Origin: Halopelagius longus
GTDB taxonomy: Archaea > Halobacteriota > Halobacteria > Halobacteriales > Haloferacaceae
Direction: 5' to 3'
Length of the DNA: 64,000 nt
Assembly: GCF_900100875.1 (NCBI RefSeq)
Contig: NZ_FNKQ01000003.1
Location: 744,001 to 808,000, forward strand
Part shown: positions 28,180 to 31,280 of the stretch, piece by piece
Position numbering within the stretch: the first letter of the stretch is position 1
How the letters are laid out: each line of letters starts with the position of its first letter
Translations under genes and position numbers: made by a program
The notes under the pieces: model-generated
Database searches by the model: none
Seen by the model: the letters and a program-made list of their open reading frames with translations, nothing else
What the model was told of the DNA's origin: nothing

Positions 28180-28932
28180 CTACGACCCCTCAGTTTCTAT
28201 CTCGATGGGGAACTCGCTGAGGCTTTCATCGTTGGACGTCGGGAGCAAGTACTGCTTCCACTCTCGCGTGTCAGGGTCGCCGTAGTCACCGATGTCCGGA
28301 TGAGGAGAAACGTCGTCGTACTCATCCAGTCGCTCTCTGATGATCGAGCGGGCGCGCCGGCCTTCCGCCGTATCTCCGCTGATGTCGTCGAGAACTCTCC
28401 GTGGTTGGATCGTTATCTCTAGTCCGTACGGTGTGTATCTGCTCTTCCGATCCGTATAGAACGGAGCGCGCCCGACGATGAACATCGACTCTCCACAGAA
28501 ACAAAATTCCCACTCCGGGTCGTTCGGGTCCTCGGGAACGTCGCTAGGCCATGGTTTCGGATCCCGTTCGTTTAGGAACTCGAGCGCCCTCCAGAATCGA
28601 TCACGGTACTCCTGCTCGCTTCGCTCTTCGTCGGGAGGTTCGAAAAACACCACCAAGGTCGTTCGGTCGGCTATCGACTGGTGCTGTTCGAGATATCCTT
28701 GCAACCCCGCTTTTAGTTTGAAGAGCGCATCACGGTCGCGAGGACTCCCGACGAAGAGGTAACGAGCGGTATCGTTCCGTTCAGCGTTCACCGCGAAGTG
28801 ACACGGGTAGCGGGTCTCTCGCATCGTCTCTCTGAACGCAGTATATCTCTTTTTCTTCCACGCGGCGAGCTCCTCCGCCTCTATCGCGTTCTGTAACTCG
28901 GACCGGTCGAACAGCAGCGCTGTCTTATCCAT
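28180..28932 (-). CDS. YqcI/YcgG family protein
   Basis: 250 residues, soluble. It matches the YqcI/YcgG family over its full length, with YPCHFAVNAE (42-51), WEFCFCGESMFIVG (141-154), QPRRVLDDI, HPDIGDYGD (211-219) and EWKQYLLP (224-231). From memory, some characterised members of this family act as heme-dependent N-oxygenases on arginine-like substrates; this needs checking and is not proven here. The gene starts 21 bases after the stop of the APS-kinase fusion and is the last gene of the island operon. Base composition is visibly lower in GC than the neighbouring genes, which suggests acquisition by transfer. Confidence 0.8.
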   Translation of the reverse strand: MDKTALLFDRSELQNAIEAEELAAWKKKRYTAFRETMRETRYPCHFAVNAERNDTARYLFVGSPRDRDALFKLKAGLQGYLEQHQSIADRTTLVVFFEPPDEERSEQEYRDRFWRALEFLNERDPKPWPSDVPEDPNDPEWEFCFCGESMFIVGRAPFYTDRKSRYTPYGLEITIQPRRVLDDISGDTAEGRRARSIIRERLDEYDDVSPHPDIGDYGDPDTREWKQYLLPTSNDESLSEFPIEIETEGS

Positions 28933-28953
28933 GAGCGAGGCGATGATGGCGAA

Positions 28954-29811
28954 TCATTTCTCGAGATGCTGTCCGGCGAGAAGTTCGCTCTTCTCGTATT
29001 GCTTGCGCGTCTCGGTTCCGCTGATCTCAGCGACCTCTTCCGGTACCGAGACGACCGAATACCCGACGTCCCGTCCGATGGCGACCGTGTCTACGTCCGG
29101 GATGATCATGGTCTCCACGTTCGGATGGTCCTCGTACACGCCCTCGATCAGTTCTCGGCGCTCCTGTGCGGTGAGCGGATTCTTCTCGCTGAGTTCGGTG
29201 TCTCGGATGGCGATAACGACGTCTTTTCCGTTATCGGCGGCTGAATCGATGATCGTCCGGTGTCCGTCGTGGAGTGGCTGCCAGCGACCGATGAAGATGT
29301 GGCTCGGGTCGAATTTGAACCCCAGTTCTCCGTTGATCTCCTTGATACTCTCTTCCTCTGAACGCCTCGCCGTCCGAACCGCGAGTTCTACCCCCTCTTC
29401 CGCCGGCTCCTCGAACGGCGCGTCGATACCGGTGAAACCCTCGATCTCTCCGTTACGTGCCTGTTCGTACATCCCCTTCACATCGCGTTCCTCGCACACT
29501 TCGAGGGGTGCGTCGACGTGGACGAACGAGACGTCCTCGACCTTCTCGGCGATCAGTTCTCGCTGAGAGCGGTACGGAGTGATGAACGACGCGACGACGT
29601 CGAACCCTTGGTCGTTCAACGCCTGTGCGACTCCGGCAGCTCGCCTGAGGTTCTCGGTTCGGTCTTCCTTGGAGAAACCGAGGTCGGAATTGAGGGTGTT
29701 TCGGAGATAATCTCCGTCCAGATGGACCGTGCTCGGACCGACCAATCCCTCGGCGAGGGTCGTCTTTCCGGAACACGGCAGTCCGAAAAGCCATATCGTC
29801 TCTCCGGACAT
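28954..29811 (-). CDS. APS kinase fused to an HxGH nucleotidyltransferase domain
   Basis: 285 residues with two domains. Residues 1 to about 160 are an adenylylsulfate kinase (CysC), which makes PAPS from APS. It has the P-loop GLPCSGKTT (10-18), LDGDYLRNTLNSDLGFSKED, ASFITPYRSQRELI, and CEERDVKGMYEQARNGEIEG then FTGIDAPFEEP. Residues about 170-285 are a small nucleotidyltransferase of the NMNAT/cytidylyltransferase superfamily, with IGRWQPLHDGH (HxGH at 181-184), ENPLTAQERR-like SEKNPLTAQERR, and ISGTETR (263-269). ATP sulfurylase belongs to the same superfamily, so this domain might make APS, but that is an inference; its closest look is NMNAT. The ATG overlaps the stop of the upstream short ORF (TGATG). 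Confidence 0.88.
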   Translation of the reverse strand: MSGETIWLFGLPCSGKTTLAEGLVGPSTVHLDGDYLRNTLNSDLGFSKEDRTENLRRAAGVAQALNDQGFDVVASFITPYRSQRELIAEKVEDVSFVHVDAPLEVCEERDVKGMYEQARNGEIEGFTGIDAPFEEPAEEGVELAVRTARRSEEESIKEINGELGFKFDPSHIFIGRWQPLHDGHRTIIDSAADNGKDVVIAIRDTELSEKNPLTAQERRELIEGVYEDHPNVETMIIPDVDTVAIGRDVGYSVVSVPEEVAEISGTETRKQYEKSELLAGQHLEK

Positions 29812-29942
29812 CAGTCGACCTCCCCCGCAAGCGAAACACGGCAGCGTCCGTCCACGCTGTTCTGAATTCCGCCGACTGCGGTGATTTCGATACTGTGCGC
29901 ACGGGTCGGTATCGATTCGGTATTCGACGTCTCGTTAGACAT
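29811..29942 (-). CDS. Candidate 43-residue ORF coupled to the APS kinase fusion
   Basis: ATG at 29942, stop TGA at 29813-29811 overlapping the ATG of the fusion gene (TGATG). The product begins MSNETSNTESIPTRAHSIEI and ends GRCRVSLAGEVD. The overlap is typical of real coupled genes, but the 114 bases upstream to the sulfotransferase stop hold nothing else. It may be a remnant of a larger gene. No homology recognised. Confidence 0.35.
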   Translation of the reverse strand: MSNETSNTESIPTRAHSIEITAVGGIQNSVDGRCRVSLAGEVD

Positions 29943-30056
29943 GGATCTCGCCTCGTTTACTGGGGATGTGGGCTTCCTCGCAATCGGTCTCGACGGTCGT
30001 CGTCTCCGCGAACGACGCGACTCGCCGTGCTACTGTCTCGTCCTTCGCCGTGTTTC

Positions 30057-31280
30057 TCAGATCCACTCCGATTCCTCCGTGTAGCCCAACTCCCGGACGA
30101 CCTCGGTATACGGCTCGTCGGCCTCCGCGAGCGCACTCTTGACAAACTCTTCTCTATCTCGCCAGCGAGCGTGTCTCGGCTCTTTCGTCGTCATCACCTT
30201 GTTGGGGTTTCCGACGTTCTCGGAGAGCAGTTCCGACGCGCCGAGGTCGGCGAAATCGACGATCTCCTCGACGGTCGAGCGGGTGTCGGTCAGAAGATCC
30301 TCGAACCGGACTCGAAGGACGCCGTCGAACGCGTCGCGAGTATCGAGGATGTGGCGATGGGCTTGCGCCCACTGCATCAGACAGACGTCGACGAGGTCCC
30401 CCTCGCGGACCCAACCCGGTGGGAGGTCGTAGCACCACAGCGAGCCGTCGTATCCGTCGATATCCAGATCTCCCACGTCGTACGTCTGGAACCCCCTGTT
30501 CAGCTGCCACCCGTCGTAGAGCCCGTTGATCGACGCCGCCGGGTTGCGCGTGAGATGGACGACTTTGACGTCGGTCTCGGGGAATAACTGCTCGCGGATC
30601 CACGGGAGCCGGTACGCGTCGCCACTCGCTTTCAGGACGAGCGTCCGATCGAAGTCGTCCGCCGTCAGTCCCCGCTTGTACCGATGCGAGGAGACGAACG
30701 GTCGGTCCTCGATCGTTTCGGCCTCGAACGGACTGCTCGCATCTCGCTCCGCGTACTCATCGTACTGCAACGGGGGGATTCCGAACCCTTCGAGTATCTC
30801 GTCGAGCGACGCTCCCTCGAGCAGTTGTTCGCCTATCTGCTCGTAGGGGAGTTCTCGCTCGGGGAACTGCAACGGAAGACGGACGAGCGTGTTATCCACG
30901 CGGTGCGTTCGGTCGCCGGGCCGGTCGGTCGCACCGACCTCGGCGAGGAGGTCAGTCAGGAGCCTCTCCCTATCGAACGACTCGAAGTCGGCCGGAACGA
31001 CGTCGGACTCCAGCGCGGGGTAACCGATCCCGTGTAGAGTGAACCACCTGTCGTGTTCTCCGTCGAGACTACACGTTCCCTCGTGGTGACGAAGGATATC
31101 GAAAAGGAGGCTGCTACCCCCTCTCGGTGCCGTCGCGATGAGCAGTACGCCGTCGAAGTCGTCGGCCCGGTACTCCGACAGAACCGACCGCTTCTCCTCC
31201 GAGATAACCTCGTTTTTCACGCGTTCGTAGTTCTGCTTGGCTCGCTCTCGGAGAGCGACTGACGACTCTTCGACACTCAC
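30057..31280 (-). CDS. PAPS-dependent sulfotransferase
   Basis: It should transfer sulfate from PAPS to an acceptor hydroxyl or amino group. The 407 residues carry the 5'-phosphosulfate-binding loop TAPRGGSSLLFDIL (50-63) and the 3'-phosphate-binding motif VVHLTRNPAASINGLYDGW with Arg245 and Ser250. Between them are H-R-YKRGL and a long acceptor region. No signal peptide or membrane anchor is visible, so it acts in the cytoplasm. The start is a GTG at 31280 with the strong Shine-Dalgarno GGGAGGTGA 7 bases upstream. It is the first gene of the operon whose later gene makes PAPS. The acceptor is unknown; haloarchaea are known to sulfate glycolipids and N-glycans. Confidence 0.88.
   Translation of the reverse strand: MSVEESSVALRERAKQNYERVKNEVISEEKRSVLSEYRADDFDGVLLIATAPRGGSSLLFDILRHHEGTCSLDGEHDRWFTLHGIGYPALESDVVPADFESFDRERLLTDLLAEVGATDRPGDRTHRVDNTLVRLPLQFPERELPYEQIGEQLLEGASLDEILEGFGIPPLQYDEYAERDASSPFEAETIEDRPFVSSHRYKRGLTADDFDRTLVLKASGDAYRLPWIREQLFPETDVKVVHLTRNPAASINGLYDGWQLNRGFQTYDVGDLDIDGYDGSLWCYDLPPGWVREGDLVDVCLMQWAQAHRHILDTRDAFDGVLRVRFEDLLTDTRSTVEEIVDFADLGASELLSENVGNPNKVMTTKEPRHARWRDREEFVKSALAEADEPYTEVVRELGYTEESEWI

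Follow-up and report, generated by a model that had tools for sequence, protein, structure and literature searches.

A mobile sulfation cassette of haloarchaea with a candidate minimal ATP sulfurylase

A low-GC gene block with the parts of a sulfation pathway

We analysed a 64,000-nucleotide stretch of the Halopelagius longus genome (contig NZ_FNKQ01000003.1, positions 744,001 to 808,000; hereafter the window, whose own numbering we use) and focused on a compact minus-strand gene block at positions 28180-31280. An earlier note, made from the letters of this DNA alone, had described the block as a lower-GC sulfation operon of three genes and one short open reading frame (ORF). Profile matches to each gene bore out the three genes, and the composition was as described: GC content is 59.9% in the block compared with 67.5% in the whole window, the lowest of any 3.1-kb stretch there, and GC at third codon positions is 0.69-0.79 compared with 0.85-0.92 in the neighbouring genes tested. 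An ABC-2 transporter pair flanks the block on one side and ligA on the other. The short ORF proved to be two chained 43-residue ORFs, likewise on the minus strand, that are the fossil of a gene. The features are as follows.

30057-31280, minus strand: sulfotransferase (ST), 407 aa, GTG start; PF13469 and PF00685 above cut-off
29935-30066, minus strand: relay ORF A, 43 aa, GTG start; overlaps the ST stop codon; 5' remnant of a gene resembling arginine deiminase/dimethylarginine dimethylaminohydrolase (ADI/DDAH)
29811-29942, minus strand: relay ORF B, 43 aa; 3' remnant of the ADI-like gene
28954-29811, minus strand: CysC fusion (CysC-NT), 285 aa; adenosine 5'-phosphosulfate (APS) kinase at residues 1-~163 and a nucleotidyltransferase (NT) domain at ~168-285
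28180-28932, minus strand: YqcI/YcgG heme guanidine N-hydroxylase-like protein, 250 aa; PF08892; axial Cys44 kept

The proposal of a sulfation operon gained support. Every cassette locus that we found links the putative maker of 3'-phosphoadenosine-5'-phosphosulfate (PAPS) to the ST. The ST scores 36.3 bits against Sulfotransfer_3 (PF13469; cut-off 27) and carries a 5'-phosphosulfate-binding-like motif (PRGGSSLL, residues 52-59) and a 3'-phosphate-binding-like motif (RNPAASI, residues 245-251), which are invariant in 13 loci except for P52. The Pfam match and the two motifs together mark it as a predicted PAPS-dependent sulfotransferase. Two neighbouring genes also fit PAPS use. In six haloarchaeal cassettes a PHP gene lies divergently near the ST, and its best NCBIfam model, although under the cut-off, is a 3',5'-nucleoside bisphosphate phosphatase; loci of Marine Group II (MGII) archaea carry CysQ, a gene for a phosphatase of 3'-phosphoadenosine-5'-phosphate (PAP), in place.

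A CysC fusion with a small nucleotidyltransferase domain

The note's identification of the CysC fusion as the PAPS maker stood, but its partner domain, the most novel part of the block, had gone unrecognized. The CysC part scores 156 bits against APS_kinase (PF01583; cut-off 21.1) and 159.3 bits against TIGR00455 (cut-off 138.7). The Walker A, DGD, FI(S/T)P(F/Y) and KG(L/M)Y..FTG motifs of APS kinases are invariant or nearly so, and the haloarchaeal and MGII forms (DGDxxR, SFITPY and KG(M/L)Y..FTG) are canonical. Judged by its sequence, the region of residues 1-163 is a canonical APS kinase.

The NT domain, of ~115 residues, resembles nicotinamide mononucleotide (NMN) adenylyltransferases (NMNATs) and scores 39.7 bits against CTP_transf_like (PF01467; cut-off 21). 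Its motifs in the window protein, GRWQPLHDGH, PDVDTVAIGRDVGY and ISGTETR, keep HxGH (H181, H184), NPxTA and ISGT-R, and PF01467, HxGH and ISGT-R together place it in the HxGH nucleotidyltransferase superfamily. Across haloarchaea, MGII and phages, 20 columns are invariant, including R203, GR (246-247) and GY (250-251), and D204 is nearly so. NT is closest in sequence to NMN adenylyltransferases (best PDB matches 1f9a, 2qjt and 1ej2), with a score of 34.5 bits that falls short of the cut-off of the NMNAT equivalog TIGR01527 (181.2).

Phylogenetic profile, gene replacement and phage relatives point to ATP sulfurylase activity

Two enzymes, Sat and CysDN, which are not related to each other, are known to activate sulfate. 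We found the fusion in 12 of 292 sampled genomes of the haloarchaeal class (13 copies, 81-90% identical across different families). Sat was found in none of the 12, and neither was CysN over its cut-off; those of the weaker haloarchaeal CysN matches (~290 bits) that were read turned out to be EF-1alpha. In haloarchaeal genomes with a stand-alone CysC, Sat was present and adjacent in 6 of 7. Among MGII genomes, CysN was missing from 24 of the 25 with the fusion, Sat was absent from all 79, and all seven with CysN carry CysN-CysC fusions. Collectively, 36 of 37 fusion genomes (12 haloarchaea and 25 MGII) had neither Sat nor CysN, whereas 12 of 13 genomes with an ordinary APS kinase had one of them (Fisher p 1.4e-9 for both groups, uncorrected for phylogeny and gaps in metagenome-assembled genomes (MAGs), and in its MGII part partly a product of construction, as the ordinary kinases there are CysN fusions).

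The genomic context in MGII suggests replacement in situ. Fourteen loci have the order CysQ - (ST) - CysC-NT - coiled-coil - FtsY, with the ST present in four; in L252, the fifteenth, the gene order is the same but no CysQ match was detectable. In two others (L242 and L245) the same slot reads CysQ - CysD - CysN-CysC - coiled-coil - FtsY. CysQ of L233 and both CysD and CysN-CysC of L242 pass NCBIfam cut-offs. Where present (L239, L240, L250 and L251), the MGII ST, a weak NoeE-like match, sits between CysQ and CysC-NT and so repeats the ST-CysC-NT neighbourhood.

An NT profile search of IMG/VR returned 316 phage relatives, and neighbourhoods were counted in the 80 loci kept. In 76 of the 80, NT is encoded separately (~131 aa) next to a CysC-like gene, and in 32 an ST immediately precedes the pair; Pfam confirmed ST and APS_kinase in the phage examples scanned. 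Downstream of two phage ST-CysC-NT operons (at L165:4780-5655 and L192:4336-5664) are genes for a ~292-aa protein, maybe a glycosyltransferase, and for a protein with DUF2061, the latter shown for L192; these genes suggest a surface or glycan target.

In both NMNAT and ATP sulfurylase an oxyanion attacks the alpha-phosphate of ATP. Both histidines of HNGH are essential in human ATP sulfurylase (PMC11697783). The phylogenetic profile, the replacement in situ, the phage gene pairs and this shared chemistry suggest that NT is an ATP sulfurylase. Given the profile, the replacement and the pairing in operons, NT is probably a minimal enzyme of this kind and the fusion a complete PAPS synthase. We further consider it likely, by a good margin, that the NMNAT-derived nucleotidyltransferase represents a new class of ATP sulfurylase which makes PAPS together with APS kinase and, together with the ST, forms a portable sulfation module of haloarchaea, MGII and many uncultured phages. 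Our search found no openly accessible paper that describes the fusion as a PAPS synthase, which is weak evidence of novelty, the subscription literature having been mostly outside that search.

Several observations weigh against this assignment. The window CysC-NT has no match to the Sat family PF01747, one phage NT scores only 20.5 bits against it (E 3.5e-4; cut-off 24.3), and hhalign of NT to haloarchaeal Sat was not significant, with no detectable homology beyond the HxxH motif. AlphaFold models had a mean predicted local distance difference test (pLDDT) of 54 for CysC-NT and 37 for the ST, too low to be of use. MAG incompleteness weakens the absence calls, and cysD/cysN have been described as prevalent in MGIIb (PMC6864105), where we scored CysN in only 7 of 79 MGII genomes. 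The phage kinases are without the usual APS kinase lid motif, and the cultured Stenotrophomonas phage DLP6 (L253) and Xanthomonas phage AhaSv (L254) carry the CysC-NT fusion, annotated as hypothetical, without an annotated ST nearby. Finally, PAPS_reduct-family proteins occur in 12 of 12 haloarchaeal cassette genomes; that of the window has two adjacent distant CysD-like paralogues beside a divergent P-loop kinase (G000:C2:825161-827489; L049, L003), and this host pair could supply APS.

These points feed two alternatives. In the first, NT would adenylylate another small acceptor (phosphate, selenate or another oxyanion, or a phosphorylated metabolite), CysC would 3'-phosphorylate the product and the ST-like protein would transfer a group other than sulfate. 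CysC-like kinases do act on non-sulfate nucleotides in Campylobacter phosphoramidate capsule synthesis, and the proximity of NT to NMNAT rather than Sat, the phage kinases and the two cultured phages would suit such a role. The canonical motifs kept in the archaeal CysC domains, on account of which we retain the Campylobacter analogy only as a rival, make it improbable, as do the in-situ swap for CysD and CysN-CysC beside cysQ and the ST neighbours in three groups. In the two cultured phages the fusion lies next to a phosphatase and a DNA ligase, or near a cysteine dioxygenase; PAPS may be put to another use there, or the fusion may have a different role.

The second alternative, which we regard as more improbable still, sees the fusion as a plain APS kinase whose NMNAT-like tail is regulatory or vestigial and which receives its APS from the host CysD-like pair. 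The PAPS_reduct-family proteins, and the two in the window's genome that CysD models match best, speak for it; yet with 61-69 bits those two stay far below the CysD cut-off (397), CysN is absent, the catalytic motifs of NT are invariant across three distant groups, and Sat is present and adjacent in six of seven genomes with a stand-alone CysC. The P-loop kinase beside the pair has weak similarity to APS kinases, and the three genes may belong to another, undescribed nucleotide pathway of haloarchaea.

The cassette is mobile and occurs in two types

The ST adjoins CysC-NT in all haloarchaeal loci, which span several families and nine plasmids that carry the fusion, and the CysC-NT proteins are 75-90% identical. 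A scan of GTDB representatives adds Natrialba, Natrinema, Haladaptatus, Halegenticoccus, Haloarcula, Halalkalicoccus and Halocatena as fusion carriers. The block is a conserved mobile cassette in haloarchaea, often plasmid-borne, and its patchy occurrence, plasmid location and low GC would fit horizontal transfer. In the MAG QS_4_69_225 the ST (L045:8599-9735) is ~28 internal residues shorter than all others, through an assembly error or a broken gene. A Streptomyces plasmid homologue of the ST (26% identity) lies in a non-ribosomal peptide synthetase region where the partner genes are absent.

The third gene of the block encodes a clear YcgG-family protein (PF08892; 249.9 bits, E 2.8e-74) that aligns over its length with structures of AglA (9ub3, 9uba and 9ubb; E 1e-46). 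Its Cys44, Arg165, Arg195 and Arg199 align with Cys44, Arg166, Lys196 and Arg200 of AglA (AglA residues from PMC12866846), and its score against the GntA equivalog NF041366 (58.5 bits) is below the cut-off of 145. The chemistry of the family is guanidine N-hydroxylation (PMC12866846), which the alignment makes the likely activity of the window protein.

The earlier note's suggestion of an oxygenase role for this protein is supported by the AglA match and axial Cys44. YcgG is, however, an optional part of the operon that was probably gained once. ST and CysC-NT are always linked, but YcgG adjoins the cassette in only 19 of 24 haloarchaeal loci, lying directly downstream in 17 and divergently upstream in two Halocatena. 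The family occurs in 197 of the 292 haloarchaeal genomes, and most such genes lie outside the cassette; those of the cassette nevertheless form one clade (support 100/100) apart from the sampled chromosomal YcgGs.

Two cassette types account for this pattern. Type I, with 17 loci after removal of duplicate assemblies and the window included, has the order ST - remnant - CysC-NT - YcgG. Type II (L029, L030, L035, L043 and L046) instead has an intact 286-288-aa ADI/DDAH-like gene between ST and CysC-NT, followed in four of the five loci by an argininosuccinate synthase gene (argG). An intermediate form in Halocatena combines a divergent upstream YcgG with a partly deleted or broken ADI gene, and types I and II form separate groups in the ST tree (97/95 and 100/99), with Halocatena between them. 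In Halocatena salina, a RefSeq 'hypothetical protein' of 122 aa (L087:9215-9583) is the ADI-like gene shortened by an in-frame deletion, with both ends kept.

The ADI-like protein, at 21.0 bits just under the PF02274 cut-off of 22.8, is nearest to the arginine dihydrolases Sll1336/ArgZ and Alr4995/AgrE, with Cys280, His186 and Glu140 invariant. The cassette ArgG keeps housekeeping motifs and is an extra copy, seen only with type II cassettes: genomes in which argG follows the cassette have two or three, compared with one over cut-off in the three type I genomes tested. One genome (G195) holds two complete type II cassettes (L029 and L030), which lie on separate contigs and both include an ArgG, and a third argG elsewhere. 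Beside the type II ST, a serine-recombinase-like protein is encoded divergently in L029 (4976-5650), L030 and L035 (11334-12011); its catalytic-serine region looks replaced by eye, and it may be a regulator or a mobility relic.

Because the cassette YcgGs form a single clade, Halocatena is intermediate and the ST tree separates the groups, YcgG was probably recruited once, and late, into a type II-like operon. Twelve residues in the ST and none in CysC-NT distinguish type I from type II, as expected if the acceptor, not the donor, changed between them. Both types point to a guanidino substrate, since guanidino or ureido groups are also what ADI-like enzymes and ArgG work on; that the acceptor is a guanidino or arginine-derived compound is a tentative proposal, to which we give slightly less than even credence. 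The product 2-sulfotrehalose, a known osmolyte of haloalkaliphiles, was considered and dropped: no open paper tied the genes to it, and the flanks gave no support.

In a version that follows the earlier note, YcgG would N-oxygenate the substrate and the ST would then O-sulfate the resulting N-hydroxy compound, as the core and ancestral pathway of the operon. The position of YcgG next to most cassettes and the chemistry of its family are in keeping with such a sequence of steps, in which oxygenation would come before sulfation. That this was the core, ancestral pathway is unlikely: the ADI fossil in the YcgG-type operons shows YcgG to be the later arrival, and YcgG is absent from all five type II cassettes, which have intact ST and CysC-NT with the ADI-like gene; this absence also counts against the overall scheme given below.

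A decayed gene kept open as a relay of short ORFs

The short ORFs between ST and CysC are the fossil of the ADI-like gene. ORFs A and B are chained by overlapping stop and start codons and bridge the ST stop to the CysC ATG: ORF A shares its opening MDL-overlap with the intact ADI-like gene, and ORF B starts within the end of ORF A (ATGTCTAA) and has its stop codon at the CysC start (TGATG). All 21 type I or intermediate loci have one to three ORFs that cover the remnant from ST to CysC, with overlapping or near-touching stop and start codons. Dinucleotide shuffles of the remnant gave 4.7 expected relay loci versus the 21 observed, and a stricter gap rule 3.8 versus 20; the loci share ancestry and include two duplicate assemblies, so that they are not all independent and the probability product is not a p-value. 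In Haloferax volcanii, reinitiation depends on overlaps and is lost at about 22 nt (PMC10666635).

The simplest explanation would be selection for continuous translation across the remnant. The ORFs could alternatively encode functional small proteins, as their openness in all loci and a dN/dS of 0.31 in one full-length pair (L038/L039) would allow. We think this very doubtful, as dN/dS is 0.95-1.18 in the other three of four full-length pairs (flanking genes, 0.12-0.24) and the relays, which range from 62 to 127 aa and use one to three ORFs, are poorly conserved in sequence except at the ends. A reading of ORFs A and B as peptides of the ribosomally synthesized and post-translationally modified (RiPP) kind was rejected on the series of ADI remnants.

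A proposed pathway

As a whole, the block is best explained as a mobile, self-sufficient sulfation operon with NT as its ATP sulfurylase, a guanidino acceptor and a translational relay, a composite in which we place reasonable confidence, marginally below that in the enzyme class itself. In the first step, for which the genomics argue strongly, NT, an NMNAT-type HxGH enzyme that has apparently lost most of its NMN-binding part, would act as a minimal ATP sulfurylase: sulfate, replacing the phosphate of NMN, would attack the alpha-phosphate of ATP to give APS and pyrophosphate. The N-terminal APS kinase, going by its family, would then make PAPS and pull the unfavourable first step, and the ST, likewise, would move the sulfuryl group to the acceptor. 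The by-product PAP would be removed by the divergent PHP phosphatase (six haloarchaeal loci) or by CysQ (MGII).

The acceptor may be arginine-derived or another guanidino compound. In the older cassette type, the ADI/DDAH-like enzyme would prepare it and the extra argininosuccinate synthase would return citrulline to arginine; in the type found in the window, the heme enzyme YcgG would N-hydroxylate it. After YcgG took over, the ADI-like gene would have decayed into a remnant that stayed open as a chain of very short, overlapping ORFs. The probable reason is that termination-reinitiation couples translation of the PAPS synthase to that of the ST.

If this is correct, a third ATP sulfurylase of little over 100 residues resides on phages and mobile archaeal cassettes, the synthesis of sulfated molecules in organisms without Sat and CysDN is explained, and many phages carry a complete gene set for sulfating something. 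The cassette would tie guanidine N-hydroxylation to sulfation, and its remnant would be a natural case of a dead gene seemingly preserved only as a translational bridge.

Comparison with known systems

The predicted PAPS synthase resembles the animal enzymes PAPSS1/2, which likewise join an N-terminal APS kinase and a C-terminal ATP sulfurylase with HxGH in one protein (PMC11697783), although their Sat domain has several hundred residues and the NMNAT-like domain here ~115. Bacterial-type CysD and CysN-CysC occupy the same genomic slot beside cysQ in MGII, but they pair an N-type ATP PPase with a GTPase, of unrelated chemistry and fold, where the cassette has one small domain and no GTPase. 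Archaeal NadM, an NMN adenylyltransferase, shares HxGH, NPxTA and ISGT-R with NT; only the N-terminal part matches significantly, NadM is longer (168-181 aa versus ~115), and NT has the new conserved residues RD and GR.VGY. The window CysC-NT aligns along almost all of its length (5-273 to 3-229) with the phage 'kinase' family PHROG_10255, which had been assigned no function beyond that.

The window YcgG shares with the heme N-hydroxylases AglA, DcsA and GntA the fold family, the axial Cys44, the heme-propionate Arg positions and the equivalent of AglA Phe152, and differs in being archaeal and linked to sulfation genes. The ADI-like gene of the sister cassette has the equivalents of the catalytic Cys, His and Glu of ArgZ/AgrE (arginine dihydrolase/DDAH), whereas the window retains only a non-functional remnant.

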